Assembly (NCBI RefSeq): GCF_040537815.1
Contig: NZ_JBEWSZ010000007.1
Span: 62,001-126,000, forward strand
Direction of reading: 5' to 3'
Origin: Mesorhizobium shangrilense
GTDB lineage: Bacteria > Pseudomonadota > Alphaproteobacteria > Rhizobiales > Rhizobiaceae
DNA: 64,000 nucleotides
Shown here: in pieces, positions 1,389 to 25,848 of the stretch
How positions within the stretch are numbered: the stretch's first letter is position 1
Layout of the letters: every line of letters begins with the position of its first letter
Made by a program: the position numbers and the translations under genes
The notes under the pieces: model-generated
The model's input: the letters and a program-made list of their open reading frames with translations, nothing else
Told to the model about the DNA's origin: nothing
Database searches by the model: none

Positions 1389-1513
1389 TGGTGGGCCCGG
1401 AGGGTCATCGTTTTCGACAGGAAATCAATACGTTAGCGGATGGTTCGCCAGCCCATTTCCTTCGTATTCTCTCGTATGGTCTGGCGAACCCAAGGACGAT
1501 GAACGCGACTAAT
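1389..1513 (+). repeat. Long direct repeat, copy A (possible attachment site)
   Basis: A 125-bp unit that recurs at 25696-25816 in the same orientation with roughly 75-80% identity by eye. It opens with TGGTGGGCCCGGAGGG, which is how the complement of a tRNA 3' end (CCA plus acceptor stem) commonly reads. Further in, GGTTCGCCAG (1442-1451) and CTGGCGAACC (1481-1490) form a perfect 10-bp inverted repeat around a 29-nt loop, kept in imperfect form in copy B. Use as an att site or island end is an inference; no integrase gene lies beside it. Confidence 0.6.
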
Positions 1514-1790
1514 TACAGGCTTCGAGATATCGCCGATTTAGCCGCAGGTCGCCAGGAACTCCCTTGTGGTGAATGACCAAAATTGGGCCGTTACCGGACC
1601 GTCCGGCTTGGATCCAAAGGAGCTGCAAGCTGCCGTTCGGCCGTGACCCCGCCATGCGCCCTGTTTTCTTGGTCTACGCCGTAGCCGATCTTCGAAGGGG
1701 TTCCTCTCTCCCCGATTATCGTCTACGCGCCTCGCCGGGCCACACGCTGAGCGATATGACGACGCGCTTACGCCCCCTCTCCTCAAGTTC

Positions 1791-2708
1791 TTACGGACGA
1801 ACGCGGATGACCGTCTTCCCCGTGTGTCGCTCGCTCGCGTTGAAGGTTGCAACGGCCTCGTCGAGGGCCGAAACTTTGCCGATGTTCGTCCGCAGTCGCC
1901 CGTCCCGCACCCGCTGGACGATCTCACTCCGTTGGGCGCGATCGGACTCGACAACGAAGTCAACCGCCAGGCCGTCTGCGGGCCGCGCCTCGGCCGGGCC
2001 GACGACGGTCACCAGCGTTCCTCCGGCCCGGATCAGAGCTGCGGACCGCTTCTGGATGTCCCCGCCGATGACATCGAACACCAGATCGACTCCACCGACG
2101 TCTTCCAGGGCGTCGTTCTCGAGGTCGATGAATTCATTTGCGCCGAAATCCAGTGCCTTCTGTCGGTCGGCGGCGCGTCCGGTGCCGATGACATAGGCGC
2201 CGGCCTCTCGTGCGAGTTGCGTCACCATCGAACCGACCGCGCCGGCTGCGCCATGTGCAAGGACGCTCTGCCCCGCCTGAAGACGGCCGTGCTGAAAGAG
2301 TCCCTGCCACGCGGTCAGACCCGAGATTGGCAGGCTCGCGCCTACTGTGAAATCGACGTCGCCTGGCAGCGGCGCGAGGTTGCGTGCTTCCATGGCAATA
2401 TACTCCGCCAGTGTGCCGTCGCGATACCAATCCGCGAGACCGAACACCCGCTGTCCCACTGAAAGACCCGTGGTGCCGTACCCCAGGGCAGTGACCACTC
2501 CGGCCAGTTCGTGTCCAGGGATCGATGGCGTACGCGCCTGGTCGCGGCGGTCGGTCCAAGTCGAAGGCCACTCCAACTCGGTCGGGACGAAGCCCGACGC
2601 ATGAACCTGAACGACGACGTCGTTTATCGCTGCCTGTGGCTTGGGCCGCTCCACCAGTGTCATGCCGGCCGTTCCCGCAGACTGGTTCGTCACAATGATC
2701 GCTTTCAT
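1791..2708 (-). CDS. Zinc-free quinone oxidoreductase / alcohol dehydrogenase-like (MDR)
   Basis: Predicted cytosolic NADPH-dependent oxidoreductase of the medium-chain dehydrogenase/reductase superfamily, quinone-oxidoreductase branch. The 305-residue protein has the GroES-like N-terminal half with PGHELAGVV (64-72) and the nucleotide-binding stretch AHGAAGAVG (151-159). It lacks the cysteine cluster of a structural zinc lobe, which is normal for this branch. A longer frame starts at 2783, but the ATG at 2708 has GAGGAGA about 8 nt upstream and begins with the usual MKAI. It stands alone. The true substrate (quinone, enone or aldehyde) cannot be read from the sequence. Confidence 0.88.
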   Translation of the reverse strand: MKAIIVTNQSAGTAGMTLVERPKPQAAINDVVVQVHASGFVPTELEWPSTWTDRRDQARTPSIPGHELAGVVTALGYGTTGLSVGQRVFGLADWYRDGTLAEYIAMEARNLAPLPGDVDFTVGASLPISGLTAWQGLFQHGRLQAGQSVLAHGAAGAVGSMVTQLAREAGAYVIGTGRAADRQKALDFGANEFIDLENDALEDVGGVDLVFDVIGGDIQKRSAALIRAGGTLVTVVGPAEARPADGLAVDFVVESDRAQRSEIVQRVRDGRLRTNIGKVSALDEAVATFNASERHTGKTVIRVRP

Positions 2709-2942
2709 GGGTGTCGTCTCCTCAGACATTTGTTGGTTCAGGGTAAATTGCAGGCGCGGAAGGGTCTTTTCGATCTCACGCAACCAGTTATCGACTCGAC
2801 ACTTTCCGCGACGACCTTGATGTCAATTTGCTCGTGTGCCGCAGCGACACGGATCGCCATTGGGGAGCGAACCTGCGTGGTTCAAGCACCGGCGGCGACC
2901 GAGGGTTAACTCGGCCGCTGCCGCATGATGTTAGCAAAGACT

Positions 2943-3329
2943 CTAAGGGTGCGCCGTCTTCAGCGCGCGCTCCCCGCTTTCGGGCGCGTTGAGCGCGAAG
3001 GTGACGAGGAGAACCGCAGCACCGTTCGCCCAGTAGTACCAGGCGTCCAGCCCCTGCAGGCCGAGCACGAAGGGCACGGCGACGAAAGTAATGCCGACGA
3101 GGCGGTCAACCGCGACATGCAGCCCAAATGGCAGCACTCGGACTACACCGGTCCTGTGATTGGTGAACAGGGTCAGAATGAGGGCGGCGACGCCGGTTGC
3201 GACCGACACCCAAAGCGCAAGCGGATTGGCATGGCCGAGTCCGAGCAGGAACGGCGTTGCCATCAGGCTCAGCGCGACGGGATAGTCGAGGAAGGCGTGA
3301 ACGGTCTTTGTGACGAAGCGAATATTCAT
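2943..3329 (-). CDS. SPW-repeat-like small integral membrane protein
   Basis: A 128-residue protein with four hydrophobic segments arranged as two similar halves, the second carrying the aromatic pattern AWYYWANGAA typical of SPW-repeat proteins. Family members are small bacterial membrane proteins of unknown function. The start at 3329 has a CGGAGAG site upstream; a 13-codon longer frame has none. The gene runs opposite to the AraC-type gene that starts about 100 bp away, so the two share a promoter region and may be functionally linked. Confidence 0.72.
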   Translation of the reverse strand: MNIRFVTKTVHAFLDYPVALSLMATPFLLGLGHANPLALWVSVATGVAALILTLFTNHRTGVVRVLPFGLHVAVDRLVGITFVAVPFVLGLQGLDAWYYWANGAAVLLVTFALNAPESGERALKTAHP

Positions 3330-3426
3330 GAGACTCTCCGGTTGATTAAGGACTGGGGACTTGCACACCGCTCATATGGAAGACTATGGGTGACGCTTGG
3401 TGCCAATAACTTTGCTGATCGTCCCG

Positions 3427-4254
3427 ATGGACCCCTTCGCCGCCCTGTTCGCCCATGTAACGCCGACGGCCCGGACGTTCTTCACCGGGAACCTGTGCCA
3501 GACGTTGCAGTTCACTGGCGTGGGCCATTTGCACCTGTTCAAGGCAGGCGCGCTCACGGTCACCCAGAACGGACAAGCCGACCTCGAACTCGTTGAGCCG
3601 ACCCTGCTGTTTTTGCCGCGCGGGCGGACCCACAGTTTCGCAGTTGATCCCGAGCGCGGAGCCGACCTCGTATGCGCGACCGTCGAACTCGGGGGTGCGG
3701 AGGGCAACCCGATTGGCCAGGGCCTGCCTGAATGTGTGGTCCTGCCGCTCGCAGCTCATCCGGCGCTGGGCCCGGTTTGTGATCTGCTGGTCGGCGAAGC
3801 CTTCTCCGAAGCTGGTGGCCGCCAGGCGGCGCTCGACCGGCTGTTCGACTATCTCCTGATCCTAATCGTGCGTCACGTCGTTGAGAGCGGCGCCATTTCG
3901 ACCGGCGTGCTCGCCGGGCTCGCCGACCCACGCCTGGCAAAGGCGCTGACCGCGATGCACGAGGCGCCGAAGAAGCCTTGGAAGCTTGAGGATCTGGCCG
4001 ACGTTGCGGGCATGTCACGCACGCGGTTCGCCGATCATTTTCGGACGCTGGTCGGCCTGACGCCCATTGAGTACCTGACGGTATGGCGCATGACGATCGC
4101 GCGCCAGCTTCTCCGCAAGGGCAAACCGGTCAAGAGTGTCGCGGCACAGGTCGGCTACGACAGCGCGGCCGCCTTCTCGCGCGTGTTCAGTCGGGTGACC
4201 GGGCAGCCGCCGCGGAGTTCGACGCGCTCCGGGATGGATCTCGCTAATCGATGA
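3427..4254 (+). CDS. AraC-family regulator with cupin-type N-terminal domain
   Basis: DNA-binding regulator. Residues 1-170 look like the AraC cupin_6 sensing domain (start MDPFAALF, then the GHLHLFKAG and FLPRGRTHSFA strands). The last 95 residues carry two helix-turn-helix units, the first in LEDLADVAGMSRTRFADHF and the second in SVAAQVGYDSAAAFSRVF. The TTG-initiated form from 3397 is less likely than the ATG at 3427, where the family normally begins. It is divergent from the SPW-like membrane gene and has no catabolic neighbour on its own strand. Inducer unknown. Confidence 0.88.
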   Translation: MDPFAALFAHVTPTARTFFTGNLCQTLQFTGVGHLHLFKAGALTVTQNGQADLELVEPTLLFLPRGRTHSFAVDPERGADLVCATVELGGAEGNPIGQGLPECVVLPLAAHPALGPVCDLLVGEAFSEAGGRQAALDRLFDYLLILIVRHVVESGAISTGVLAGLADPRLAKALTAMHEAPKKPWKLEDLADVAGMSRTRFADHFRTLVGLTPIEYLTVWRMTIARQLLRKGKPVKSVAAQVGYDSAAAFSRVFSRVTGQPPRSSTRSGMDLANR

Positions 4255-4503
4255 ACTCGGCACTAAGCGTCCGTACAATCAACGGCAGCTTGTGGAGCTT
4301 TGCGGAGGAGAATTGAAGTTAATTGTTCCGCGCCGCGGATGTCCGGTCGCAGGCGCAAGGCCGTCCGACAGCCTTGGGGCCGCAAGCGGAACGTCCGCGT
4401 TCGGGATGATTGGGTTAGAAAGCCAACCGTTGCATAGGAGTCTTCTATGGCAACTCGACGGTTTGACATCCAAGACTAAGCGCTAAAGGCGGTAGACAGC
4501 ATT
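4255..4503. other. Intergenic region between convergent regulators
   Basis: About 250 bp between the ends of the AraC-type and LysR-type genes. The short frames here have no ribosome site or recognisable content. No strong terminator hairpin with a T-run was seen. Confidence 0.4.
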
Positions 4504-5391
4504 CTAGGAAAAGTGTTCCTCCAGATAGACACGAAACTCGCGCTCGAACTTCTCCTGCAGCAGTGAGGACATATGGGTGCGGCTGCGCGTCAGGTAGACA
4601 TGACAGGGAACGTAGGGCAAAAACGGCTTGATGACGAGCGTTCCGCGCCAGCGTTCCGCCGAGAACTTGTCGACGATGGAGACGCCAAGCCCCTCGGCCA
4701 CAAGAGCACAAGCGGCGTCGCTGTAGTGAGCCTCGAAACGAGTCTCGACGCGAACGCCCGCATCGTCGAGACTGCGGTTGACGGCCTGACGCGATCCGTC
4801 CTCGCGCCCCAAGGCGATGAAGCTTTCGTCGCGTATGTCGGAGGCTTCGACCGTCTGCTTCCCGCTCAACGGATGTCCCGCAGGCAGCACGCAGACGGAA
4901 GCCGTCTCGAAGATGAGGTCGCAGGTCGTCGCCGGATCGATTACCGGCATCGTCATCAGGCCAATGTCGAGTTGCTTGCTCGCGGCGAGCTCGGCGATCC
5001 GCACTGAAGCTTCGGGTTCCAGCGCCAGCCGCAGCTTCGGGTGGCGCCGGGCGAACGCCCCGATAAAGCGGGGTAGCGCGTAGCTGGCCAGTGCCGGATA
5101 AGCGCCGATGATCAGCCGACCCGCCTCCAACTGCTGAATGTCGGCCGCTAGACGCCGCAGTCGAGCCATACCCTTTACGACATGACCGGCCTCCTCGTGC
5201 AGCAGGTAGGCCTCCGCGGTCGGAGCCAGCCGGCCGCCTTGTCGCACGAACAACTGGATCTTCAGCGTGTGTTCGAGGTTGGCGATGTGGGCGCTAACGG
5301 AAGGCTGCGAGATATGCAGGACATTGGCGGCGCCTATCACCGTCCCCGCATCCATCACCGCGCGAAACGCCTGCAACTGTCTGTAGTTCAT
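4504..5391 (-). CDS. LysR-family regulator of the opine-type locus
   Basis: A 295-residue LysR-type regulator. The N-terminal winged helix-turn-helix (residues 1-60) includes FRAVMDAGTVIGAANVLHISQPSVSAHI cut as the usual LysR helix pair; the rest is a periplasmic-binding-like effector domain. The gene is divergent from the binding protein and oxidase genes that start at 5641, the same arrangement as OccR and NocR with the octopine and nopaline genes of Agrobacterium. It therefore probably activates that operon in response to its substrate. A TATAG-N7-CTATA palindrome lies just upstream at 5410-5426. Confidence 0.92.
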   Translation of the reverse strand: MNYRQLQAFRAVMDAGTVIGAANVLHISQPSVSAHIANLEHTLKIQLFVRQGGRLAPTAEAYLLHEEAGHVVKGMARLRRLAADIQQLEAGRLIIGAYPALASYALPRFIGAFARRHPKLRLALEPEASVRIAELAASKQLDIGLMTMPVIDPATTCDLIFETASVCVLPAGHPLSGKQTVEASDIRDESFIALGREDGSRQAVNRSLDDAGVRVETRFEAHYSDAACALVAEGLGVSIVDKFSAERWRGTLVIKPFLPYVPCHVYLTRSRTHMSSLLQEKFEREFRVYLEEHFS

Positions 5392-5409
5392 TTTCTTTGG
5401 GTCCAGACA

Positions 5410-5426
5410 TATAGGAAAAAGCTATA
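5410..5426. promoter_or_regulatory. Candidate LysR binding site
   Basis: TATAG and CTATA arms separated by 7 bp form a T-N11-A-type interrupted palindrome, 19 bp upstream of the LysR start and about 215 bp upstream of the binding-protein gene. Its position suits autoregulation plus activation of the divergent operon. Assignment is by motif and position only. Confidence 0.5.
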
Positions 5427-5640
5427 GAGAATGAACCTTTTCATATTTGTCAATTGCCCTGGATTTCGCTCTATTCTCCACCTGCTGGAACGAGCTTCCA
5501 GCCAAGTTGGCGCCGGGATTGGCCATCGCGGCACCGCAAACAACCACTGCGCAGAGACTATCGCGATTGCGTCACTGCTCTCCGATCGATGGATTGAGGT
5601 GGCCTCTTCGCGCGCGCAGCCAAACACAAAGAGGGTAACA

Positions 5641-6507
5641 ATGAAAATGGGACTGTTACGGTGGATGGGCCTTGCGGCCAGCGTGTTTATCTTCCTCACA
5701 GGCGCCGCGCATGCGGATAACGCTGGGCAATGGTCGAAGATACGCATCGCGACCGAGGGCGCCTATGCCCCTTGGAACTATACGTCCTCTGACGGCAAGC
5801 TCGCGGGCTATGAGATCGACCTCGCCCAGGAACTGTGTCGCCGCATGAAGGCCGAGTGCGAGATCGTGGCGCAGGACTGGGATGGCATGCTGCCGGCGCT
5901 CAATGCCGGAAAGTTCGACGCCATTATCGCGTCCATGTCTGTGACGCCCGAGCGGCAGAGGGTTGCTTCCTTCTCAGTACCTTACGCCAAGGCGCCCAAC
6001 GCCTTCATGATGATGAAGGATAATCCATTGGCCTCGGAGCTTGGTCCCAGGGTCGACTACAGCCTGAAGAAGGACCCGGATGGCGCCAAGAAGGCGATCG
6101 AGGCGATGGCCGCTTCGCTCAAAGGCAAGGTTCTCGGTGTTCAGGGCTCCTCGACGGCGGCGACATTCGCCACGGCCGAGTTGAAGGACATAGTTGAGAT
6201 CCGCGAGTACAAGACAACGGACGAGCACAACCTTGACCTTGCCGCCGGGCGCGTCGACCTGGTCATGGGCAACATCACCATGTTGAAGGCAGCCATGAAG
6301 CAGCCCGACCTCGCAGGCGCCACGCTTGCCGGCCCTACCTTCATCGAAGGCGTCCTCGGCAGCGGCACGGCGAATGTGGCCATGCGCAAAGACGACACCG
6401 CGCTCAAGGCCAAGTTCGACGCGGCCATCGGCGAGGTCAATGCTGACGGGTTCAATCGCACCCTGACGGACAAGTGGTTTGGGGTCGACATCACGCCCAA
6501 GGATTGA
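5641..6507 (+). CDS. Periplasmic opine/amino-acid-binding protein (ABC)
   Basis: A 288-residue polar amino-acid-type solute receptor (SBP_bac_3). A signal peptide is clear: KMGLLRW, a hydrophobic core and AHA at 23-25. The body starts IRIATEGAYAPWNYT and contains GYEIDLAQELCRRM, standard for lysine/arginine/ornithine and opine receptors such as OccT and NocT. An ATG frame from 5431 exists, but the start at 5641 has AGAGGG upstream and a proper signal sequence. It heads an eight-gene plus-strand run with oxidases and matching permeases, so it probably captures the compound that those oxidases cleave. The exact ligand is unknown. Confidence 0.9.
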   Translation: MKMGLLRWMGLAASVFIFLTGAAHADNAGQWSKIRIATEGAYAPWNYTSSDGKLAGYEIDLAQELCRRMKAECEIVAQDWDGMLPALNAGKFDAIIASMSVTPERQRVASFSVPYAKAPNAFMMMKDNPLASELGPRVDYSLKKDPDGAKKAIEAMAASLKGKVLGVQGSSTAATFATAELKDIVEIREYKTTDEHNLDLAAGRVDLVMGNITMLKAAMKQPDLAGATLAGPTFIEGVLGSGTANVAMRKDDTALKAKFDAAIGEVNADGFNRTLTDKWFGVDITPKD

Positions 6508-6569
6508 ATTCAGCCGGGCGGGTCCAAGCTTGCGGCCCGCCCATACTGTCCATCGGAAAAATTGATAGC

Positions 6570-7670
6570 ATGACCCAGTTTGTTGTTGTGGGTGCCGGGA
6601 TCATCGGCACGTCGATCGCCTATCGCCTCGCCGAGCGGGGACATTCGGTAACAGTTGTGGAGCGCGTCCATCTAGGCGCCGGCACGAGCGGTTCGAGCTT
6701 TGCGTGGACCAACTCGAACGAAAAGACGCCTTACAGCTACCACTTGATCAATGCGCTGGGAATGCGTGCGCATAGAGAGCTGGAGAACGAGTTCGGCGAC
6801 TGCCCATGGCATCATGGCGGGGGCGCGGTCGAATGGCGCTCGAACACGGATGAAGCACAGGAACTCAACGAGCGCGTCGAGCGCCTGATCGGCTGGGGTT
6901 ATCCGGCCGAATGGATTTCGGCGCAAAGGCTGCACCGGCTGGAACCAGCGCTGGTCCAGGGAGCATCGGGCGATGCGAAGATCGCCTATTTCCCCGACGA
7001 AGGCTGGGTGGATCCCAGCGTCTATATAGAATTCTTCCTCGGCAGGGCGCGCTTCCTCGGAGTGAAGCTGCGCTGCGAAACCGTCACCGGCATCGACCTG
7101 AAGGCCGACAAGGTCATCGGCGTCAGGACGGCATCTGGCAAGACGATCGGGGCCGACGTGGTTGTCAACTGCACGGGCCGCTGGGCAAACGATCTCGGCC
7201 AGGATGTGCGCCTGACTTTCCCATTGGCTCCCACGATCGGCCTTGTCGTGGTGACGGCTCCCGCCGCATCGGGTGTGCGCCGAGTGATCCGGACAAGTGG
7301 CATCAATTTGCGCCCCGACGGGGCGGGCCGGATCATGCTGCACAGCGAGCACGACGAACAGGGCCTCACGCTGGAAAGCGGTGCGGACGCGACCGACCCT
7401 GTGGCCGCCGCAATGATCGAGCGCGCGGCGAGGCTCTATCCGGAACTCTCGGGCGTCAGGCCAGAGGCGATGCGCCTGTCGCACCGGGCCATCCCCGGCG
7501 ATGGCGTGTCGGCCGTCGGCCCGGTCCCGCAAGTCAGCGGCTATTATGCCGCCGTCACCCACAGCGGGGCGACGCTGGCGCCCTGGCTGGGGCAAGTGGT
7601 TGCCGCTGAACTGGTGGGAGGGGCCCCGGAAAAGGCGCTCCAGGACTTCCGGCCCGCCCGGTTCTACTGA
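6570..7670 (+). CDS. FAD-dependent amine oxidase (DAO family)
   Basis: A 366-residue flavoprotein of the glycine/D-amino-acid oxidase (DadA-like) family. The N-terminus FVVVGAGIIGTSIAYRLAER is the FAD dinucleotide fold, and GYYAAVTHSGATLAPWLG near the C-terminus is the second FAD contact. Such enzymes oxidise secondary or primary amines to imines. The start at 6570 begins directly with the FAD fold; upstream in-frame codons overlap the binding-protein end. A second DAO-like protein is encoded at 9507, so this one may handle a follow-up amine or a different stereoisomer. Confidence 0.87.
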   Translation: MTQFVVVGAGIIGTSIAYRLAERGHSVTVVERVHLGAGTSGSSFAWTNSNEKTPYSYHLINALGMRAHRELENEFGDCPWHHGGGAVEWRSNTDEAQELNERVERLIGWGYPAEWISAQRLHRLEPALVQGASGDAKIAYFPDEGWVDPSVYIEFFLGRARFLGVKLRCETVTGIDLKADKVIGVRTASGKTIGADVVVNCTGRWANDLGQDVRLTFPLAPTIGLVVVTAPAASGVRRVIRTSGINLRPDGAGRIMLHSEHDEQGLTLESGADATDPVAAAMIERAARLYPELSGVRPEAMRLSHRAIPGDGVSAVGPVPQVSGYYAAVTHSGATLAPWLGQVVAAELVGGAPEKALQDFRPARFY

Positions 7671-7711
7671 CGACGAAACGACGTAACCCCAGCCGTCATC
7701 AGAGAGGCAGC

Positions 7712-8008
7712 ATGTTTCGACGACTTTGGGCAGATGACTTGTCTGCGACGATCTTCTTGGACGGGCGGCCCGTGCTATGCCGGCCAGGCGACAGTGTTGC
7801 CGCGGCATTGCTCGCGGCCGGCGTCGAGCGATTTCGCACAACGCCGGTCAGCGGGGCCGACCGCATGCCCTATTGCATGATCGGCAACTGCTTCGACTGC
7901 CTGATGGAGATCGACGGGCAAGCCGACCGGCAGGCGTGCCTGGTGACTGTTGCTGAAGGAATGCAGGTCTGCTCGCAGTTCGGTACCGGGAGCTTCGGCA
8001 CCCTATGA
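7712..8008 (+). CDS. Small 2Fe-2S subunit of opine/amine oxidase
   Basis: A 98-residue Fer2_4-type ferredoxin-like subunit. Cys55, Cys60, Cys63 and Cys76 form the C-x4-C-x2-C-x12-C pattern expected for a 2Fe-2S cluster, inside PYCMIGNCFDC and the following QACLVTV. Comparable small subunits occur in heterotrimeric opine oxidase, D-hydroxyproline dehydrogenase and HcnABC cyanide synthase. Its stop overlaps the next start as ATGA, showing translational coupling to the FAD/BFD subunit. Presumably passes electrons from flavin to a respiratory acceptor. Confidence 0.9.
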   Translation: MFRRLWADDLSATIFLDGRPVLCRPGDSVAAALLAAGVERFRTTPVSGADRMPYCMIGNCFDCLMEIDGQADRQACLVTVAEGMQVCSQFGTGSFGTL

Positions 8009-9459
8009 CCGTCGCGCGCACCAATTGCGAACTTGCCATCGTAGGCGGCGGCCCCGCAGGTCTGGCCGCCGCCGCGCTTGCCGCCGAGTTGGGCGTGGAA
8101 ACGGTGCTGTTCGACGAGCAGCCGACGCCGGGTGGACAGGTCTACCGCAACATCGAAGCCAACAGCCGCAGGCATGACGCGTTGCGCGATATTCTCGGCG
8201 GCGACTACGCCAAGGGACTTGCGCTGGCGGAACGCTTTCGCAGGAGCGGCGCCGGCTACGAACCGCTGACCGCTATCTGGCAGGTTTCGGCTGGCGGCAA
8301 GCTCGGCGTCTCTCAGAACGGCAAGGCCTATCTGACGAAGGCCGGCAGGGTCATCCTGGCGACCGGCGCGATGGAGCGCCCGTTTCCAATTCCGGGATGG
8401 ACACTTCCAGGAGTCATGGGAGCGGGAGCGGCCCAGACGCTCATGAAGGCGTCCGGCATAGTGCCTGACCGGCCGACTATCATCGCTGGCTCGGGGCCTC
8501 TTACCTATCTCGTGGCCTTCCAGCTTTTAACGGCCGGAGCACCCCTGCATGGCATTATCGACACCTCCGAAAAAGGCCTGTTCGAGACGGGGCTGGCCGC
8601 GCTGCCTTTACTGTCCAGCTTTGCCGGCGATTTGCTCAAGGGCCTGTCCTGGATCGTCGCGCTCGGGAAGGCGCGCGTCCCCTTCTTCAGGGGGCGGAAC
8701 CTTGCGGCCGAAGGCGTTTCTCGCCTAGAGGCCGTCAGCTTCGACAGCGGCGGCAGGCGGCACAGGCTGCCGGCATCGCTTTTGCTTGTTCACGAAGGCG
8801 TGGTCCCCAACAACCAGATCACTGCAAGCCTGCGGTGCAGGCACGTCTGGGACGTGGGTCAGACGGCATGGCATCCGCAGACGGACAAATGGGGCGCGAC
8901 GAGCACGGAACTTATCGCCGTCGCGGGCGATGGCGCAGGCATTGCTGGCGCCAGGTCGGCAGTGCACCGCGGGCGGCTGGCGGCACTCGATGCTGCCTGT
9001 CGCCTGGGCCGCATTTCCCGGACAGAGCGCGACGAACGCGCGCTTCCCGAGCGTCGGGCCGTTCAGCGGGAGAACCGGTTCCGTGCGTTCCTCAACAGCG
9101 CCTATCACCCGACCGAGGCTGTACGCTGGCTGGCCGACGACACAATCGCCTGCCGCTGCGAGGAGGTGACGGCCGGCGAACTGCGCGCGCTCATCTCCGA
9201 GGGCTTCACCGACATCAACCAGTTAAAATCGTTCTCCAGGTGCGGCATGGGCCAGTGCCAGGGCCGAATGTGCGCAGGCACCGTCGCCCGCCTCATGTCG
9301 GACAGCCTGAAAAGCGACATCGAGTCGGTCGGCTATTACCGGCTCCGTCTGCCCATTAAGCCGTTGCCTGTCGCCCAGCTTGCGGAACTCGGCAACGCAG
9401 ACCGCGATTCCAGACCTTTGCTGCCCGTCGTCGAGGGCGATCCGAGCCAGCGCATTTAA
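8005..9459 (+). CDS. Opine/amine oxidase large subunit (OoxA/NoxA/HcnB-like)
   Basis: A 484-residue subunit with an FAD fold at the N-terminus (AIVGGGPAGLAAAALA, residues 11-26), a second nucleotide-binding loop (AGSGPLTYLVA, 161-171) and a C-terminal BFD-like 2Fe-2S domain with Cys383, Cys385, Cys413 and Cys418 (CRCEEV and CGMGQC). This layout is that of OoxA/NoxA in octopine/nopaline oxidase and of HcnB. Together with the small subunit before it and the DAO-like subunit after it, it should form a membrane-associated dehydrogenase that splits an opine or N-substituted amino acid. The electron acceptor and substrate are inferred. Confidence 0.9.
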   Translation: MTVARTNCELAIVGGGPAGLAAAALAAELGVETVLFDEQPTPGGQVYRNIEANSRRHDALRDILGGDYAKGLALAERFRRSGAGYEPLTAIWQVSAGGKLGVSQNGKAYLTKAGRVILATGAMERPFPIPGWTLPGVMGAGAAQTLMKASGIVPDRPTIIAGSGPLTYLVAFQLLTAGAPLHGIIDTSEKGLFETGLAALPLLSSFAGDLLKGLSWIVALGKARVPFFRGRNLAAEGVSRLEAVSFDSGGRRHRLPASLLLVHEGVVPNNQITASLRCRHVWDVGQTAWHPQTDKWGATSTELIAVAGDGAGIAGARSAVHRGRLAALDAACRLGRISRTERDERALPERRAVQRENRFRAFLNSAYHPTEAVRWLADDTIACRCEEVTAGELRALISEGFTDINQLKSFSRCGMGQCQGRMCAGTVARLMSDSLKSDIESVGYYRLRLPIKPLPVAQLAELGNADRDSRPLLPVVEGDPSQRI

Positions 9460-9506
9460 GCGATGCAGAGCGGAAGCGACATGATGAGACGGAATGGAAA
9501 GCTACA

Positions 9507-10649: not shown

Positions 10650-10688
10650 CGTACGTTCCTAACCGCAAAGTCACGCAGGTAGCTGGCC

Positions 10689-16755: not shown

Positions 16756-16757
16756 GG

Positions 16758-17834: not shown

Positions 17835-17862
17835 GTCGGTCTCCCGGTCGTTGCGTCGTTGG

Positions 17863-19374
17863 TCAGCGAAGGCGGATGATGAAGGGGTCATGCATGGCGC
17901 CGGAGTAGTCGATGACGACGTTCTTCAGGCGCGAGAACTCCTCCATGGCGTCGAAGCCGCCGCGCCGCCCGTAGCCGCTCTCCTTGAAGCCGCCATTGGC
18001 GGACATGAAGGAGGAAGCGCGGTAGGTATTGACCCAGACCGTGCCGGCCTCGACATTCCTGGCGAAGCGCAGCGCGCGGTTGATGTCCCGCGTCCAGATA
18101 CCGGAGGCCAGCCCATAGCGTGTGTCGTTGGCGAGCTGGATCATCTCGTCTTCCGAAGAGAACGGCATGACGCCGACAACGGGCCCGAACAGTTCCTCTT
18201 GCATGAAGTCCATGCCGTTATCGGCATCGGTCATCACGGTCGGCTCGAAATACCAGCCTCCGGCAAGCTCGGCCGCCTGCGGCCGCCTGCCGCCGGCAGC
18301 GATGCTCGCGCCCTGGCGCACGCCCGAGGCGACATAGGTTTCCACCTTGGCAAGCTGCGCCGACAGCGCCAGCGGACCGATGTCGGTTTCCTCCAGCGTC
18401 GGCGATCCGACCCGCACGCGCCTCGTGCGCTCGACCAGCGCCTCGACGAAGCGATCGTAGACGCTGGCCTCGACGAAACAGCGCGAACCGGCGACGCAGG
18501 TCTGCCCCGCCGCCGCGAACACACCGGACACGACGCCGTTGACGGCATGGTCGATGTCGACATCGCCGAAGACGACATGCGGCGACTTGCCGCCGAGCTC
18601 CATCGAGCAGGGAATGAGGTTTTCCGCCGCATTGGCGGCAATGCGGCGTCCCGTCACCGTCGAACCGGTGAAGACGAATTTGGCGATACCAGGGTGGCGC
18701 GTCAGCGCGTCCCCCGCCACGGCACCGGTGCCGGTGACGACATTGACGACGCCGGCGGGAAAGCCGGCTTCCATGATCAGCTCGGCCAGAGCGAGCGTCG
18801 AGGCCGTGGCATGCTCGGACGGCTTGACGACCACAGTGTTGCCGAGCGCCAGGCATGGCGCCAGCGTGCCGGTGAGCAGCATCAGCGGCGAGTTCCACGG
18901 CGTGATCATGCCGACGACGCCGATCGGCTCGCGCAGGTTGAAGTTGAGCATGTCGAGCTTGTTGACGGGAATCGTGTCGCCGAGCAGCTTGTCGGCCATC
19001 CCGGCGAAATAGGTGTAGCTGTCGGGCATGGCGCGCATCTGCGCCCGCATTTCCTTGAGCAGCTTGCCATTGTCGCGTGTCTCGATCAGCGCCAGCTCGT
19101 CGGCGTGCTCCAGCACAAGTTCCGCCAGCCGGCGAACGAGCTTACCCCGGTCGGTCTGGGTCATGCGCCGCCAAGCTGGATTTGCGAAAGCGGAACGCGC
19201 GGCCTCGACAGCCGCGCCGACATCCTCGGCATCGGCCTCGGCGAACTGGTACCAGGGCTTGCCGGTGGTCGGGTCGAAACTGTCGATGTACTGCCCGCCT
19301 TTCGGGGCCACGAACGCACCGTTGATGAACAGGTTCTGGCGTGAGCCTTCGAGCGATCCGACCGTCGTTTTCAT
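17863..19374 (-). CDS. NAD(P)-dependent aldehyde dehydrogenase
   Basis: A 503-residue aldehyde dehydrogenase. Catalytic Cys293 lies in AAAGQTCVAGSR, general base Glu259 in MELGGKSPHVV, Asn161 in PWNSPL and Lys184 in VVVKPSEHA. Length and motifs are standard. It should oxidise the aldehyde released in the pathway to an acid. It lies 22 bp after the flavin reductase gene and 28 bp before the monooxygenase gene. Substrate range cannot be inferred. Confidence 0.94.
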   Translation of the reverse strand: MKTTVGSLEGSRQNLFINGAFVAPKGGQYIDSFDPTTGKPWYQFAEADAEDVGAAVEAARSAFANPAWRRMTQTDRGKLVRRLAELVLEHADELALIETRDNGKLLKEMRAQMRAMPDSYTYFAGMADKLLGDTIPVNKLDMLNFNLREPIGVVGMITPWNSPLMLLTGTLAPCLALGNTVVVKPSEHATASTLALAELIMEAGFPAGVVNVVTGTGAVAGDALTRHPGIAKFVFTGSTVTGRRIAANAAENLIPCSMELGGKSPHVVFGDVDIDHAVNGVVSGVFAAAGQTCVAGSRCFVEASVYDRFVEALVERTRRVRVGSPTLEETDIGPLALSAQLAKVETYVASGVRQGASIAAGGRRPQAAELAGGWYFEPTVMTDADNGMDFMQEELFGPVVGVMPFSSEDEMIQLANDTRYGLASGIWTRDINRALRFARNVEAGTVWVNTYRASSFMSANGGFKESGYGRRGGFDAMEEFSRLKNVVIDYSGAMHDPFIIRLR

Positions 19375-19396
19375 GCTGTCTGTCCTGCGTGGAACA

Positions 19397-20374
19397 TCAT
19401 TCGGACGCGGCCTGCGTCCACGATTGCGACTGGCCGTCGATCATGGCGACGCGGCCGCCGTCACCGGTGTCGATGTAGATGCCGAAGCGCTTGTCCTGGC
19501 GCTCGCGCGCATAGCGGCGCAGCATGGCGCGCAATTCATGCGTGGCGATCCGCTCATAGGGCAGCGCGTCGACGGAAAAGAAGGCGTGGCCATCCGGCAG
19601 CGCGGCCTGCGCGCTCTCACGGCTCAGTTCGGCGCGGTAGATCAGATAGCCCGGGTCGCTGTCGGCGACGTCGAACACCGAATAGAGGAAGGTGTTTTCA
19701 GGGACGAGGCTAAGCGCCTCGCCGCCATCGAGGACGAGCTGGCTGTCGGCCTTGCGGCGCCGCGCCGTCGGCAGCACCCAGCCTCCCTTGCCATCGCTGC
19801 GCAAAAGGATGCGGTTTCCGGCTTCGACCAGATAGCCGATGATCATGTCCTGCGAGGCCAGCCAGCCGGCGGGCAGCGGATCCTTCACGCTGGCGTAACG
19901 GCCGCGGCAAAATCCGAGCGGCGCCGATGGGCTGGTGCCGAAAGCCTGGACCTGGCCGATCAGGATGATGTGGTCGCCGGCCTCGATGCGGTTGTGAACG
20001 GTGCAGTCGAACCATGTCAGGCTGTCGGTCAGGATCGGCGCGCCGGTGTGGGCGCGGTCATGGTTGACCGACTGGAATTTGTCCGCCGCTTTGGACGCGA
20101 ACACCGAAGAAATTTCGACCTGGCCTTCATGCAGGAAATTGACCGCGAAGGACCGTGTTTCGTTGAAGGCGGGAAAGCTCGCCGCCGCCTTGCCGACGCA
20201 GACCAGGAGCAATGGCGGGTCAAGCGAGACCGAGGTGAAGGAGTTGGCGGTCATGCCGCGCGGATTGCCGTCGCAATCGCGCGTGGTGATGACGGTGACG
20301 CCGGTGACGAAGGTGCCGAAGGCACGACGCAAGGCGATCGGATCGATCGTCCTTTGTGCCACCGCGTCCGCCAT
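19397..20374 (-). CDS. Flavin reductase with C-terminal extra domain
   Basis: A 325-residue protein. Residues 8-165 form a flavin reductase domain (RRAFGTFVTGVTVITT, GMTANSFTSVSLDPPLLLVCV), which supplies reduced FMN to a monooxygenase. The last 150 residues form a second domain, starting near SQDMIIGYLVEAGNRILLRS, with a GGWVLPTAR stretch that recalls Nudix folds, although a Nudix box is not seen. Start at 20374 has GGAGG upstream; 48 extra codons to 20518 are rejected. It is the first gene of the operon and the natural partner of the luciferase-like enzyme. Confidence 0.88.
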   Translation of the reverse strand: MADAVAQRTIDPIALRRAFGTFVTGVTVITTRDCDGNPRGMTANSFTSVSLDPPLLLVCVGKAAASFPAFNETRSFAVNFLHEGQVEISSVFASKAADKFQSVNHDRAHTGAPILTDSLTWFDCTVHNRIEAGDHIILIGQVQAFGTSPSAPLGFCRGRYASVKDPLPAGWLASQDMIIGYLVEAGNRILLRSDGKGGWVLPTARRRKADSQLVLDGGEALSLVPENTFLYSVFDVADSDPGYLIYRAELSRESAQAALPDGHAFFSVDALPYERIATHELRAMLRRYARERQDKRFGIYIDTGDGGRVAMIDGQSQSWTQAASE

Positions 20375-20547
20375 TGCTTTCCTCCATAGTGTCGGATGAA
20401 AGCTAGGCAGGAGCCGGCCGGCGTTCTTCCTCCGGTCTGTAGGAAAGATGGCGCAGCGTGCTGCTGTTATCCCGAGCAAGCGCGAGCGCGGCGAACCTGA
20501 GCTTGCGGCGGCTCGCATCGCAACAGTGGTGGCGAGGTCAGGAGAGT

Positions 20548-22347
20548 CTAGCGGGCTGCCGGCACGCGGCTGTCGATGATGCCGCTGAGACGGATCGCCA
20601 GTTCAACCGCGAAGCGCTGTTCGGGCGTGTCGAGACGGATCCCGAAGAGTTCCTCGATGCGCGACAGGCGATAGCGCAAGGTGGTGACATGCAGGCCGAT
20701 TGCGTCGGCGCAGGCCTGGCTGCGGCAGCCCTCGCGCAGATAGGCAAACAGCGTGTCCAGATAGGGCGTGCCGTGCTCGCGGTCATGCGCGATCAGGGCG
20801 CCGATACTGTCCTCGACAAAGCCGCGCACGTCGGGAGCGTCGGCGGCGGCGACCAATATCGGCAGCGGGCCGAAATCCTGGCCGGCGAAGACACCGGTGC
20901 GCCCGAAGGAACGGCCGATCCGGATCATGCGGCGGCACCGCTCCCAGGCGATGGGATAATCTCCCAGCGCGGCACAGGCCTCGGAAAGCACGACCACCGG
21001 TTCGCGTTCGAAATAGCGGCCGAGCTCGGCCGCGATCCTGTGCGGCAATTTCGCGAAGCGCGCGCCGTCCTGCCCGGCATCGGCAGGAACCAGGCAGACA
21101 AGCCCATCTTCCACCGCGATTGCCGTGCCGGCAATGCCGGCCTGCTGCAGGAGACGCATGAGCGCATGATGCGGATCGGCAAGGCCGATAGCACCGTCCT
21201 TCGCCTGCTCGGCGAGGTCGACGACGATCATCTTCTGCGCAACGCTCAAGTCGAGCCCCAGCCGGCGGGCGCGATTGACGATATCGGCCTCGTCGCGCCA
21301 GCGGCGCTCCGCCACCTCCAGGAAAAGCTCGGTTAGCGAACGCGTTTCGAAACGGAAGCGCACGAAGCTGCGCATCATCTGCACGCTGAGCGCGAATTTG
21401 GTGCTGTCGAGCAGCATCTGGTCGAGCTGGCCCGATGCCTGCGGCGTCGGGAAAATCATCAGCGCGCCAACCACTTCGGCGTCGATGGTGAGCGGCTCGA
21501 TGCGCACCGAAAGCTTGAGCTGTCGCTTGCCGTCATCGACAAACAGCGTCTCGGTGTGGCGCCCGTCGGACGCGCTACGCGCTATCTTGAAGATCTGCCG
21601 GCTCAGCGTTCCACTCACCGCCTGCTGCCAGGAGGCGATGTCGAAATGCGCCTCGCTCGGGGAACGGCCGGCGACGACTAGATTGGCATGGAAATCGATC
21701 ACCACCACCGGATTGGGCAGAAGCTCGCTGACCTTTTCGGCGAGCGAGACCACGGACCCGTCCGACAAGGCCTGCTGCAAAAGCGAGGTGTGCGCCGAAA
21801 GCGCGCGTTGCAGGCGTTCGCCAGCCTGCTTCTCCTGGCGCAGCCGATGCTGCTTCTCGACCGCGATCTCGCCCAGATGCACGATCATGCCGATGAAGGC
21901 GATATCCTCCGCCGTCACTTCGGTGATCTCGCGCGAGACGACGGTCAGCACCATCGGCCGGCCGTCTTCGTCGACGCAGTTCATCGGCATAACCAGCACG
22001 CTGCGGTAGTCGCGCTCGAAGGCCTCGCGGCGATAGCCCGGGAATTCCTCTGACACCCGCGCGTCCCTGATATAGACCGGTTCATTGCGGTTGAGCGCGA
22101 CGATCGAGGGACTGGTGGCCAGTTCCCAGCGGTCCGGCAGCGTGCGGTGAATGAGCGTCGGATCGTGGCGCACGATGACATAGGCGTGGCCATGCGGTGC
22201 ATCGATGCCCATGATCGAGCCCAACGTCCATTTGGCATGACGGCAGGCCGCCAGCACGAGGTCGCGCAGCACGGACTGGAGATCGCCGCCCGAATTGATG
22301 AGGCTGGCGGCGTCCCGCAAGGAGAGAATTTGCGACTCGTGGTCCAC
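20548..22347 (-). CDS. PucR/CdaR-type regulator with N-terminal GAF-like domain
   Basis: A 599-residue regulator. Residues 1-165 resemble a GAF sensor domain, followed by a helical linker rich in Gln and Arg and a central domain. The last 60 residues hold the PucR C-terminal helix-turn-helix (YLDTLFAYLREGCRSQACADAIGLH cut into its two helices, then TTLRYRLSRIEELFG). PucR-type proteins often control purine, amino-acid or polyamine breakdown. The gene lies 173 bp upstream of the flavin-reductase operon on the same strand and is divergent from the AA_synth gene, so it probably controls both. Confidence 0.88.
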   Translation of the reverse strand: MDHESQILSLRDAASLINSGGDLQSVLRDLVLAACRHAKWTLGSIMGIDAPHGHAYVIVRHDPTLIHRTLPDRWELATSPSIVALNRNEPVYIRDARVSEEFPGYRREAFERDYRSVLVMPMNCVDEDGRPMVLTVVSREITEVTAEDIAFIGMIVHLGEIAVEKQHRLRQEKQAGERLQRALSAHTSLLQQALSDGSVVSLAEKVSELLPNPVVVIDFHANLVVAGRSPSEAHFDIASWQQAVSGTLSRQIFKIARSASDGRHTETLFVDDGKRQLKLSVRIEPLTIDAEVVGALMIFPTPQASGQLDQMLLDSTKFALSVQMMRSFVRFRFETRSLTELFLEVAERRWRDEADIVNRARRLGLDLSVAQKMIVVDLAEQAKDGAIGLADPHHALMRLLQQAGIAGTAIAVEDGLVCLVPADAGQDGARFAKLPHRIAAELGRYFEREPVVVLSEACAALGDYPIAWERCRRMIRIGRSFGRTGVFAGQDFGPLPILVAAADAPDVRGFVEDSIGALIAHDREHGTPYLDTLFAYLREGCRSQACADAIGLHVTTLRYRLSRIEELFGIRLDTPEQRFAVELAIRLSGIIDSRVPAAR

Positions 22348-22511
22348 GCCTGATCTTCCGCCACTCGCGAAGGGCGAATTTAAGCCGTCGCGGATATACG
22401 AACGCTACACCGCTTCCAAGCGGGGCGCACGCCGATTCTTCCTACGAACCGGAGGAATACCCGCCGATTGGCGCTCACTAGATTTGAGCTTCCACGTGGA
22501 GAGGCCAAATC

Positions 22512-23093
22512 ATGGAATTGCGAAAAGTCTGTACCTTCATCGAGGAAGTCCACCTTGAAGGCGGCAGGGCGGCCGCCAGGCCGGTGACATCGATCGTCGT
22601 CGCCGCCGTCTTGGGCAATCCATGGGCCGGGCGCGGCTTTGTCGAGGATTTGCGGCCGGAGATTGTCGCCATCGCACCCCGGCTCGGGCAGGAACTCACG
22701 CGCCGCCTGATTGGGCTGATGCCGGCGGAACGCATCGAAAGCTACGGCAAGGCCGCCGCCGTCGGAACCGCCGGCGAGATCGAGCATGCCTCCGCCATGA
22801 TCCACACGCTGCGCTTCGGCAATGTTTTCCGCGACGCCGTCGGCGGCACGACCTATCTCGAATTCTGCAACACCCGCAACGCGCCGGGCGCGCTGCTGTC
22901 ATTGCCGATGATGCACAAGAGCGAGAACGGTCGCCGCTCGCATTTCATCACTGCCAACTTCCAGATCGCCGATGGACCGGCCGCCGACGAAATCGTCGTA
23001 GCCATCGGCGCGGCGGATGGCGGCCGCCTCCATCCGCGGATCGCGGATCGTTTTCAGGACATGAAGGAGATGGAGCAGGAAGCAGCGATGTGA
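22512..23093 (+). CDS. AA_synth family protein (DUF1185)
   Basis: A 193-residue protein that matches the amino-acid-synthesis family (PF06684) by its pattern LRKVCTFIEEVHLEGGRA, AAVLGNPWAGRGF and the C-terminal GAADGGRLHPRIADR. The family is poorly characterised; its members often sit beside luciferase-like monooxygenases and flavin reductases in Rhizobiales. The gene is divergent from the PucR-type regulator. No catalytic residues can be named with confidence. It probably belongs to the same pathway as the minus-strand operon. Confidence 0.84.
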   Translation: MELRKVCTFIEEVHLEGGRAAARPVTSIVVAAVLGNPWAGRGFVEDLRPEIVAIAPRLGQELTRRLIGLMPAERIESYGKAAAVGTAGEIEHASAMIHTLRFGNVFRDAVGGTTYLEFCNTRNAPGALLSLPMMHKSENGRRSHFITANFQIADGPAADEIVVAIGAADGGRLHPRIADRFQDMKEMEQEAAM

Positions 23094-23337
23094 TGCTTGC
23101 GCTGCATCCCCTGCGCTGTCGTCGATGATGTCCGCTTTCGAGAATCGGCGCAGCTGACCTCAACGGCGGACATTGGGCGCGTTGCGGTCCGGCAGCTTTG
23201 GGGCCGAGGAACGAACCGGCTGCGCGGGAGGGGCGCTTGCGGTTGAGGTAGAGATCAAGAACCGATCGTCGCGCTCGCGTCGAGCGTCGTTCGGCTGGAG
23301 CAGAGCATGGCGGGCTTCTTCAACAAGGAGCCTGACC

Positions 23338-24000
23338 ATGCACCATCCCATTCTCGATGCAGCGATCAGCCCGCTGCGCCAGCGGCTGATCGACGACATG
23401 AACATGCGGCGTTTCTCAAACGACGCTTTCGACGAACTTGCCCGCCGCTGGCTGCCCATCCTCAACGATTTCGACGAGCAGGGTGTCGATCTCTGCTTCG
23501 AAATCCACCCTTGTGAGGACGTTCACGACGGGCTGACCTTCGAAATGTTCCTCGAGCGCGTCGGCAACCACCCGCGCTGCAACATCCTCTACGACCCCAG
23601 CCACTTCGTGCTGCAGGCTTTGGACTATCTGGCGTTCATCGATCACTACCACGAGCGCATCAAGATGTTCCACGTCAAGGACGCGGAGTTTCGGCCCGAC
23701 GGCAAGACCGGTGCATATGGCGGCTTCCAGCCGTGGTCCAAGCGCGCCGGGCGCTTCCGGTCGCTCGGCGGCGGCCAGGTGGATTTCGGAACCATCTTTA
23801 CGAAGCTGTCCACCTACGGCTTCGACGGATGGGCAACCCTTGAATGGGAATGCTTCATCAAGAACCCGGAAGACGGCGCGGCGGAAGGCGCCGAATTCAT
23901 CCGAAAACACATCATCCGTGTCGCCGACCGGGCGTTCGACGACTTTGTGAAATCTGGCGCCAACAAGGACGCTAACCGGGCAATGCTCGGGCTTGACTGA
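23338..24000 (+). pseudogene. Chimera: integrase N-terminus joined to 5'-truncated sugar phosphate isomerase
   Basis: One open frame of 220 codons made from two unrelated genes. Residues 1-27 (MHHPILDAAISPLRQRLIDD, then MNMRRFS) are the start of a tyrosine-recombinase-type integrase, complete with its leader and start site. From about residue 28 on the sequence is the C-terminal two-thirds of a xylose-isomerase-like sugar phosphate isomerase/epimerase: VDLCFEIHPCEDVHDG, NILYDPSHFVLQ, IKMFHVKDAEF and WATLEWECF. The isomerase lacks its first TIM-barrel strands. It lies 13 bp before a Gfo/Idh/MocA dehydrogenase, its usual partner in inositol/sugar operons. Probably not functional as an isomerase. 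Confidence 0.85.
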
Positions 24001-24013
24001 GGCATAGACAGAA

Positions 24014-25210
24014 ATGTCCGACACGACGACGAAGAAACCCCTCCGGCTGGGCATGATTGGCGGCGGCCAGGGGGCCTATATCGGCAACATCCACCGCATC
24101 GCCGCTAGACAGGACGGCGCCTGGCAACTCGTCGCCGGCGCGTTCGATGTCGACTCGGCCCGCGGACACGCGTTTGCGGCCCGCGAAGGCCTCGACCCTT
24201 CCCGGTCTTATGACGACTACAAGGCCATGATCAAAGGTGAGCTCGAGCGCGACGACAAAATCGACGCCGTTGCCATTTGCACGCCTAACTTCACGCATTT
24301 CCCCATCAGCAAAGCATTCCTGGAAGCAGGCTTCGACGTGATTTGCGAGAAGCCGCTGACAGCGACGTTGGAGGACGCCATCGCGCTAGAGAGACTGGTG
24401 CGCGACAGCGATAGGTTCATGGGCGTGACCTACACCTATTCGGGCTACCCGATGGTGCACGAGGCCCGACACATGGTCGCCACCGGCCAGCTCGGCAAGA
24501 TCCGCACCGTTCAGGTCGAATATTCGCTTGAGTGGATGGCGACTGCCATCGAGACGGAGGGTAATGCACAAGCGGCGTGGCGCACCGATCCCAAGAAGAA
24601 CGGCCGAGGTGGTTCGATCGGCGATATCGGCACCCATGCCTACCACCTGGCGGGTTTCGTATCTGGCCTGAAGCTCGAATCTCTCACGGCGGATCTCGCC
24701 ACGTTCGTCCAGGGACGTGCCCTCGATGATAATGCTCACGTTCTGCTGCGTTACCAAGGCGGCGCCCGCGGACTGCTGTGGTCCTCGCAAGTGGCGCTCG
24801 GATCATCAAATGGCGTGCGTCTGCGCGTCTTCGGCGAGAAAGCTTCGCTGTCCTGGTTCCAGGAGCAGCCGAACGAGCTCGTCCATGCGCGCCTTGGCGG
24901 ACGAACCGAGATCATCAAGCGCGGCGCCGATGATCTCAGCAAAGCAGCAAAGGCCCGTACCCGCACGCCGCCGGGACATCCCGAGGGATATCTGGAGGCG
25001 TTCGCCAACCTCTATGCCGGATTTGCGGAAGCGATCCACGCCAAGCGCGAGAAGCGCGAGCCGTCAGCCATTGGTCGCGATATCCCCACTGCCTATGATG
25101 GACTGAAGGGTGTTGCCTTCGTCGACGCTGTCGTTGACAGCGCAAGCGCGCAAGACCTTTCCTGGCTGACGCCTGTGGCTGTGAAGACCTTAATCGCGAC
25201 GACATGCTAA
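24014..25210 (+). CDS. Gfo/Idh/MocA family oxidoreductase
   Basis: A 398-residue NAD(P)-dependent sugar or inositol dehydrogenase. The Rossmann start is LRLGMIGGGQGAYIGNIHR, and the family marker CEKPL follows FDVI near residue 117-121. GGSIGDIGTHAYHL carries the catalytic histidine region. The end of the protein (AQDLSWLTPVAVKTLIATTC) does not look like the family C-terminus, so the last residues may be read-through into foreign DNA. With the broken isomerase upstream, this was likely part of a sugar or inositol-derivative pathway whose promoter side was lost. Confidence 0.9.
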   Translation: MSDTTTKKPLRLGMIGGGQGAYIGNIHRIAARQDGAWQLVAGAFDVDSARGHAFAAREGLDPSRSYDDYKAMIKGELERDDKIDAVAICTPNFTHFPISKAFLEAGFDVICEKPLTATLEDAIALERLVRDSDRFMGVTYTYSGYPMVHEARHMVATGQLGKIRTVQVEYSLEWMATAIETEGNAQAAWRTDPKKNGRGGSIGDIGTHAYHLAGFVSGLKLESLTADLATFVQGRALDDNAHVLLRYQGGARGLLWSSQVALGSSNGVRLRVFGEKASLSWFQEQPNELVHARLGGRTEIIKRGADDLSKAAKARTRTPPGHPEGYLEAFANLYAGFAEAIHAKREKREPSAIGRDIPTAYDGLKGVAFVDAVVDSASAQDLSWLTPVAVKTLIATTC

Positions 25211-25695
25211 GTCGCGCGAGCAGGGTTGTGAGCGGCGTACCATGATGTGCCGCGATGTCTTAATCTCCGTAGGCCGGATGACTCACAGCGCCCCGATCCT
25301 CGACATTAACCTCGACTAGCTTTGACCTTCAGTTGCTGATTGAGGCTTTGGAGAGCTAAACCGGAGAACGTCAGTTGCGCGCAATGGGGCCGCCTAGAGA
25401 TGGTTCAGGTCTCCTATGTCCCGCCGGTTTGCACAGCGCCTTCAAGCATCTTGAGCCTGCGGCCGAGTTCAGAACCCGCCTAATTGTACGTCGTTGCCGC
25501 CGATCACCGCACGCATCGCTGAAGGGTCTTTCGAAGCCGGGAGTGTTGAGCTACCTGTGACGAGTGCCATCAACGAGACGGAGAAAATTGACGAACGGGC
25601 CCAAAACCATTTCACCCAAAGGCAGAGACTTAACCGACAACGCTCAATTCAAACTCAAAGAATTAAGCGTAAGTCACTGATTTAAATAACGATAA
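25211..25695. other. Gene-free stretch before repeat copy B
   Basis: About 480 bp with only short frames and no ribosome sites of note. Towards the end it becomes A/T-rich (AATTAAGCGTAAGTCACTGA, ATTTAAATAACG), the same type of transition that precedes repeat copy A. Probably decayed intergenic sequence. Confidence 0.4.
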
Positions 25696-25816
25696 TGGTG
25701 GGCCGGAGGGACGTCGTCTTTTCAACAAAAACAAACAGTTAGCGGGTGGTTCGCCCAGCCATATCCTTCGTATGTTCTCGTATGGTCTGGCGACCCGAAG
25801 AAGAGACCCGACTAAT
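25696..25816 (+). repeat. Long direct repeat, copy B (possible attachment site)
   Basis: A 121-bp second copy of the unit at 1389-1513, same orientation. Shared blocks include TGGTGGGCC.GGAGGG, GTTAGCGG.TGGTTCGCC, TCCTTCGTAT, TCTCGTATGGTCTGGCGA and CGACTAAT. The hairpin arms are GGTTCGCCCAG (25748-25758) and CTGGCGACC (25787-25795), slightly decayed compared with copy A. Together the copies bracket 24.2 kb. Confidence 0.6.
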
Positions 25817-25848
25817 GCAGACCCAAAAGCGCGGCCCAGTGGCTCGCG

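Follow-up and report, generated by a model that had tools for sequence, protein, structure and literature searches.

Repeats bracketing catabolic genes in Mesorhizobium shangrilense resemble worn attachment sites in a tRNA-Met accretion array

Two direct repeats of about 120 bp, here called A (1389-1513) and B (25696-25816), bracket 24 kb of catabolic genes in a 64,000-nucleotide stretch of the Mesorhizobium shangrilense genome, referred to below as the window (NCBI RefSeq assembly GCF_040537815.1, contig NZ_JBEWSZ010000007.1, here C7, positions 62,001 to 126,000 of the forward strand). The repeats appear to be worn attachment (att) sites of mobile elements that insert at the tRNA-Met gene of Mesorhizobium, forming a chain that gathers catabolic blocks. 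The whole is very probably a tandem array built by accretion of tRNA-Met integrative elements, most of them remnants without an integrase, as judged at the level of sequence from core identity, frame continuity, arm motifs, polarity, breakpoints and the presence of two integrase classes at one tRNA with chimeric junctions. Genome growth of this kind is known; here it can be seen in unusual detail.

Within the window, copies A and B share 78.7% identity over 127 columns on the same strand (93 bits, expectation value (E) 7e-22), while the next-best match to A has an E of only 0.025, which bears out the co-oriented direct repeats described in an initial annotation of this DNA. The full copies found in the entire genome (8.35 Mb, 49 contigs) were A and B alone. 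The search gave a third match, to the first part of B, at the 3' end of the tRNA-Met(CAT) gene of contig C2 (97% over 31 positions); no tRNA gene was found within the window itself. The annotation had also noticed that the repeats start like the complement of a tRNA 3' end. This identity is exact in A, whose first 16 bases, TGGTGGGCCCGGAGGG, are the reverse complement of the last 16 nucleotides of the C2 tRNA, CCA included (16/16), and this core occurs exactly only twice in the genome, in the C2 tRNA and in A. The core of B lacks one base.

The C2 tRNA-Met gene directly abuts an open reading frame (ORF) for a 413-aa tyrosine recombinase (PF00589, E 4.5e-12), which continues through the core and takes its last codons from antisense tRNA (..NNDNGGPGGTRTPNQAVMSRRL). 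Relatives of this integrase, with the two classes described below pooled, were detected in 72 of 146 genus genomes at E <= 1e-40; a limited number of candidates per genome was scored in these integrase searches and in the block searches below. Among 30 integrase loci examined, ARAGORN identified tRNA-Met in 16 and none in 14. All 15 loci at which the integrase ends in GGTRTPNQAVMSRRL have the tRNA, and the sixteenth tRNA-Met locus is a frameshifted copy (L091). At most of the 14 tRNA-less loci the integrase reaches or crosses the core and continues into different sequence; L088 yielded no readable end and L090 is out of frame. An integron was considered and set aside, as the IntI-type model TIGR02249 scores 20.6 bits against a cut-off of 265. 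Directly upstream of the C2 integrase is a 112-aa ORF (L014:10783-11121) with weak similarity to Tn916 Xis (E 0.013), a candidate directionality factor.

Beyond the core, copy A continues in frame into a tail that is also found on integrases. The database protein P0056 is an integrase fused to an A-type tail, ending in GGPGGSSFSTGNQYVSGWFANPFLSYSLVWSGEPNDDKRD, and P0122 is a second fusion with a tail of the same kind that differs in its last part. Replacement of the integrase C-terminus can therefore be seen at sequence level, with one core followed either by tail (P0056, P0122) or by antisense tRNA. Because the core leads into the tail and the tail is fused to integrases in these proteins, A and B resemble the P'-arm halves of attP. 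The same P' arm also accompanies a second form of the core, close to TATGTTAGTCGCTGAGGG, at L034, L042, L047, L061, L107, L122 and other loci. A search of the M. shangrilense genome with one 24-base form of the TTAGTCGC-type core, at up to three mismatches, gave no match.

The annotation had further described a conserved hairpin in both repeats. Its inverted repeat, GGTTCGCCA/TGGCGAACC, is indeed intact in A and worn in B (Table 1), but the conserved structure did not hold up: the 'hairpin' consists of two inverted TGGCGAACC arm sites, and the C2 integrase gene contains three more copies of this motif, directly oriented, ahead of the core. Thirty-two rows of the repeat family were aligned. The 287 arm-pair cells of the stem test comprised 256 unchanged, none compensatory and 31 one-sided or broken, and Rfam gave no match at A or B; an RNA or DNA hairpin element was rejected on these grounds. 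At V-type sites, which carry the tail of A and B, the exact arm motif occurs 0.68 and 0.50 times per site to the right of the core and 0.15 times to the left, against a background of 0.005 and 0.004, an enrichment that on the right depends in part on the way the sites were identified. Close by on the left of A and B, no exact TGGCGAACC can be seen. The consensus of this tail and that of a sister tail class (Q) both contain a pair of CGTAT repeats spaced exactly 10 bp apart, which may be a binding site of the directionality factor or of the integrase.

Taken together, A and B would be P'-arm halves of attP from a family of elements targeting tRNA-Met. In the circular element, the integrase ORF would pass through the 16-bp core, equivalent to the tRNA-Met 3' end, and finish in an A/B-type tail, with attP arms made up of three direct TGGCGAACC sites in the integrase gene before the core and, beyond it in the tail, two that are inverted. 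Integration at tRNA-Met would join the integrase to antisense tRNA, creating the new ending GGTRTPNQAVMSRRL, and would leave X-core-tail at the far end. A newcomer would again enter at the tRNA, displacing older elements outward and adding a core-tail junction, with a single direction throughout. Many older elements would by now have lost their integrase, and the 24 kb between A and B would be a composite of such remnants bearing catabolic genes. Since A and B carry the same P' side past the core, they would represent successive junctions. From these features we infer strand exchange at the sites, the order of events and the present state of mobility, the core of B being damaged.

Sites of this type are widespread in the genus. 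A query with B gives matches at E <= 1e-3 in 102 of the 146 genomes. This figure counts matches at that threshold, with at most five candidates per genome scored in nearly all genomes, and the weakest matches may be tRNA-plus-integrase ends only, like the one on C2. Such abundance, with many genomes matching several times, and the presence of an inverted repeat would also suit a dispersed non-coding repeat (repetitive extragenic palindrome or miniature inverted-repeat transposable element, REP/MITE-like, or an RNA hairpin) lying next to operons by chance. That origin is extremely unlikely given the strict polarity of the sites, their tRNA core and the integrase fusions, in addition to the Rfam and stem results above. 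Neighbouring sites within 200 kb are co-oriented in 31/31 pairs among the 150 matches listed (E <= 2.2e-11, from 81 genomes). The annotation had held that many copies scattered without relation to islands would speak against an island; B-type copies do occur in many genomes, yet they are not randomly oriented.

The polarity extends to the integrases. In 24 of 28 integrase-tail pairs within 300 kb, the tail lies upstream on the same strand; these polarity counts are based on the 150 listed matches, typed by hand, and 46 integrase matches of about 75% identity or more, and omit integrase fragments adjoining another match and isolated fragments in genomes G085 and G075. In the single-contig genomes G038 and G005, one strand carries the tail or tails, then a class-1 integrase with Q tail, and then, about 287 kb (G038) and 342 kb (G005) further on, a class-2 integrase at tRNA-Met. 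The sites are also synteny breakpoints. Among 70 V sites, flank-sharing pairs retain both flanks once and one flank 22 times, compared with 11 and 5 for control points 650-750 bp away in the same loci (Fisher p 2.6e-5). With longer flanks at 91 sites of both tails, both are shared in 1 case, the left only in 73 (mostly the integrase gene itself) and the right only in 10. For example, the right flank of A is 91% identical over 937 bp to that of a site in G025, whose left flank gave no match.

Two integrase classes lie against tRNA-Met. The second is 46-48% identical to the first, has a different arm sequence and adjoins tRNA-Met in 8 of the 9 loci fetched; the ninth (L203) is without tRNA-Met and without a tRNA-derived ending. 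Sister-type (Q) tails occur on C7 to the left of the window, in the same orientation as A and B, at about 2460, 3732 and 57011, and C2:887886 has a worn one on the same strand as the C2 integrase. Chimeric junctions, at which an arm of one class meets a tail of the other, are expected from serial integration at one tRNA. The site at C7:57011 has a class-2 arm as its left flank (profile E 7.9e-19), preceded by a worn class-2 integrase end (34% over residues 298-400, E 3.8e-12). Classification of 92 sites by tail and left flank yielded 32 V-P1, 5 V-P2, 37 V-other, 12 Q-P1, 1 Q-P2 and 5 Q-other, where flank classes were accepted to E 0.01 and include weak ones, copies retrieved through their similarity to A and B supplied the V profile, and the Q profile was trained partly on Q-P1 sites.

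These junctions bear on whether any site-specific step followed the first integrations. Homologous recombination between old att sites might itself generate co-orientation and breakpoints, given that each site is a repeat about 120 bp long, that worn ones like B may still be able to pair, and that some blocks move without sites. We regard this as unlikely, because the chimeric junctions join an arm and a tail of different classes that have the short core alone in common. A short shared core offers little substrate for homologous recombination.

The interval between A and B contains catabolic and transport genes, and at first sight direct repeats with a tRNA 3' core around coherent catabolic genes suggest a single simple 24-kb integrative element with its attL and attR. 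This is very unlikely, however. The roughly 105 bp shared beyond the core lies on the same side in both copies, as in two P' arms and unlike attL and attR; no PF00589 or other integrase family was found among those interval ORFs that were scanned; and blocks of the interval match other genomes separately. The single 24-kb element was rejected accordingly. Of the integrated element with tRNA-proximal ends proposed in the annotation, the att origin stands (tRNA-Met 3' end, with an integrase at the same tRNA in the same genome), whereas A and B do not bound a single element; similarly, the catabolic content of its coherent island is confirmed and its unity is not. The interval appears instead to consist of at least four blocks with separate distributions (Table 1). 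The converse case raised in the annotation, that the 24 kb is core DNA left unbroken in all close relatives, was not supported either, with no unbroken copy among the matches listed for the 146 genomes in a non-exhaustive search that scored two candidates per genome.

Table 1 Features of repeats A and B and of the interval between them (window positions)
Feature	Position	Strand	Basis or comparison
Left flank of A, flank type bearing GGGGGTTCGAGTCC at 1319-1332	1319..1388	+	
Copy A core, TGGTGGGCCCGGAGGG	1389..1404	+	Reverse complement of tRNA-Met(CAT) 3' end
Copy A putative P' arm / integrase C-terminal tail, frame GGPGG-SSFSTGNQYVSGWFASPFPSYSLVWSGEPKDDERD then stop (TAA at 1510-1512)	1405..1512	+	Integrase-fused relatives P0056, P0122
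Inverted arm-type site GGTTCGCCA, left half of hairpin in copy A	1442..1450	-	
Two CGTAT direct repeats in copy A, shared with sister (Q) tail consensus	1463..1477	+	
Arm-type site TGGCGAACC, right half of hairpin in copy A	1482..1490	+	
Block 1	1401..4291		G025 1401-4215 at 93%, tail included; G022 1587-4291 at 96%
Block 2, opine-type genes	4499..12921		LysR, binding protein, DAO-type oxidases, SoxA-like subunit, ABC transporter
Block 3, 10.2-kb gene set	12998..23181		ABC importer, luciferase-like monooxygenase, aldehyde dehydrogenase, flavin reductase, PucR-type regulator
Block 4, xylose-isomerase-like TIM barrel and Gfo/Idh/MocA dehydrogenase genes	23199..25690		G144 85% over 23420-25182
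Left flank of B, AAATAACGATAA	25684..25695	+	Same as beside integrase at tRNA-Met
Copy B core	25696..25710	+	One base deleted relative to tRNA
Copy B putative P' arm / tail, frame TSSFQQKQTVSGWFAQPYPSYVLVWSGDPKKRPD then stop, worn arm sites 25748-25756 and 25788-25796	25711..25816	+	

In G025, a class-1 integrase fragment directly follows the block 1 match, about 2.8 kb from the site. Block 2 is matched once in each of G125, G128, G113 and G104, at 83% over about 4499-12921, and the match stops there. The ends of block 3 are sharp in several genomes. In G039 an att site is present on each side of it, at distances of about 140 and 95 bp; G098 and G059 each have one site about 80-105 bp to the left of the block. 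A second, diverged copy (76-82%) of most of block 3 exists in the M. shangrilense genome itself (G000:C1:4046016-4056350). The first part of block 4 (23199-23418) is found at 91-95% in several genomes and also just beyond a class-1 integrase with Q tail in G005 and G038; it is possibly insertion-sequence DNA at a lost junction.

Several observations weigh against accretion at tRNA-Met as the full account. A V site was present within the fetched flanks at only 3/20 block 3 loci and at none of the other 17. Block 3 must therefore also move by other means, att-bounded movement being at most one of several routes, and block 3 as a pure att cassette was rejected. The left flank is unrecognised in 37/74 V and 5/18 Q sites, A and B included. 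In 3/28 integrase-tail pairs the tail is downstream (two of these within 150 bp of an integrase fragment), and in 1/28 it is on the opposite strand. Some copies with a TTAGTCGC-type core have a stop at the core, and the database proteins found with an integrase and a V-type tail number two only. Nor is the tail clearly conserved as protein: the three codon positions are about equally conserved (0.91, 0.88 and 0.86), which leaves a conserved tail peptide unsupported, and the constraint looks like that of DNA binding sites rather than of a peptide.

If the accretion reading holds, contig C7 would presumably be the outer part of the C2 tRNA-Met island. The polarity of C7 fits this placement, and the array zones of G134 and G036 contain DNA resembling C2:910759-918759; on the other hand, C7:132000-140000 gave scattered matches only and no C7-C2 link. 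A broader and rather doubtful extension is that the arrays act as a genus-wide catabolic cassette system, in which integrase-less operon blocks would be moved in trans by the integrase resident at tRNA-Met, and exchange of the C-terminal tail with tRNA or a neighbour's arm would switch its activity between the circular and integrated states.

Accretion at RNA genes has been described in other systems. In Dehalococcoides, islands stand in tandem at the single ssrA gene, each bounded by 3'-end repeats with conserved flanks, some lacking integration genes, and the dsiB integrase gene overlaps the att site at its 3' end, according to the account in PMC3146451. Tandem islands at an RNA gene and an integrase overlapping its att site are thus common to both systems; the Dehalococcoides islands use a CcrB-like recombinase and tmRNA, whereas here a tyrosine recombinase, tRNA-Met, two integrase classes on one core and catabolic operons are involved. 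Likewise, accretion of cis-mobilizable elements (CIMEs), as outlined in a review (PMC5704250), rests on decayed elements that retain att sites and on newcomers inserting beside them in tandem, as here; unlike those cases, the present chain is recognisable by one P'-arm repeat across over half of the sampled genus. The probable tRNA-Met array would be a well-resolved case of this known kind.

Exchange of the integrase ending also has a precedent. In the Myxococcus phage Mx8, the attP core lies inside int and integration provides a new 3' end that modifies integrase specificity, as summarized in a review (PMC6070905); the core within the integrase gene and the exchanged ending seen here are Mx8-like at the sequence level only. 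Within Mesorhizobium, tripartite integrative and conjugative elements (ICEs) are described with IntM/attM, a met-tRNA target and a tyrosine integrase (PMC5882170, PMC8627217, PMC9973854), and strain CA8, with an ICE reported at met-tRNA, holds the class of integrase seen here (L177). The likeness to IntM is one of target, integrase type and genus, and those accounts describe att pairs whereas chains of lone P' arms occur here. The attP of ICEMlSymR7A is described as a core with five arm-type sites of motif TGKTGGTATC, used by IntS (PMC11963761). Five arm sites of one motif around a core are likewise predicted here, with TGGCGAACC and the tRNA-Met integrase in place of that motif and IntS.

These observations suggest accretion as the source of part of the catabolic variation near tRNA-Met, and they provide a searchable 120-bp marker for element junctions in Mesorhizobium. 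Five arm sites in attP, and an integrase ending that varies with the location of the gene, are predicted. The observations also caution against assuming that a gene block between direct repeats is always a single element.

In a family sample, model R1 matches 12/297 genomes and 8/109 genera; 4 of the 12 are Mesorhizobium, M. shangrilense included, and some others are weak. No match to copy A was found in the phage records searched, and no description of an A/B-type repeat in the open-licence literature searched. No integrase ORF was recognised in the left flank of A, nor beside B, whose longer left flank falls below the P1 profile threshold and hence into the class 'other'. The GGGGGTTCGAGTCC segment left of A is T-arm-like and recurs left of copies L045, L059 and L150, and one G short at L055; this flank is probably the end of another element, perhaps of a third class. 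Many genomes match, at 76-84%, a segment of about 420-455 bp immediately to the right of B (25835-26289), which is possibly an insertion-sequence remnant.

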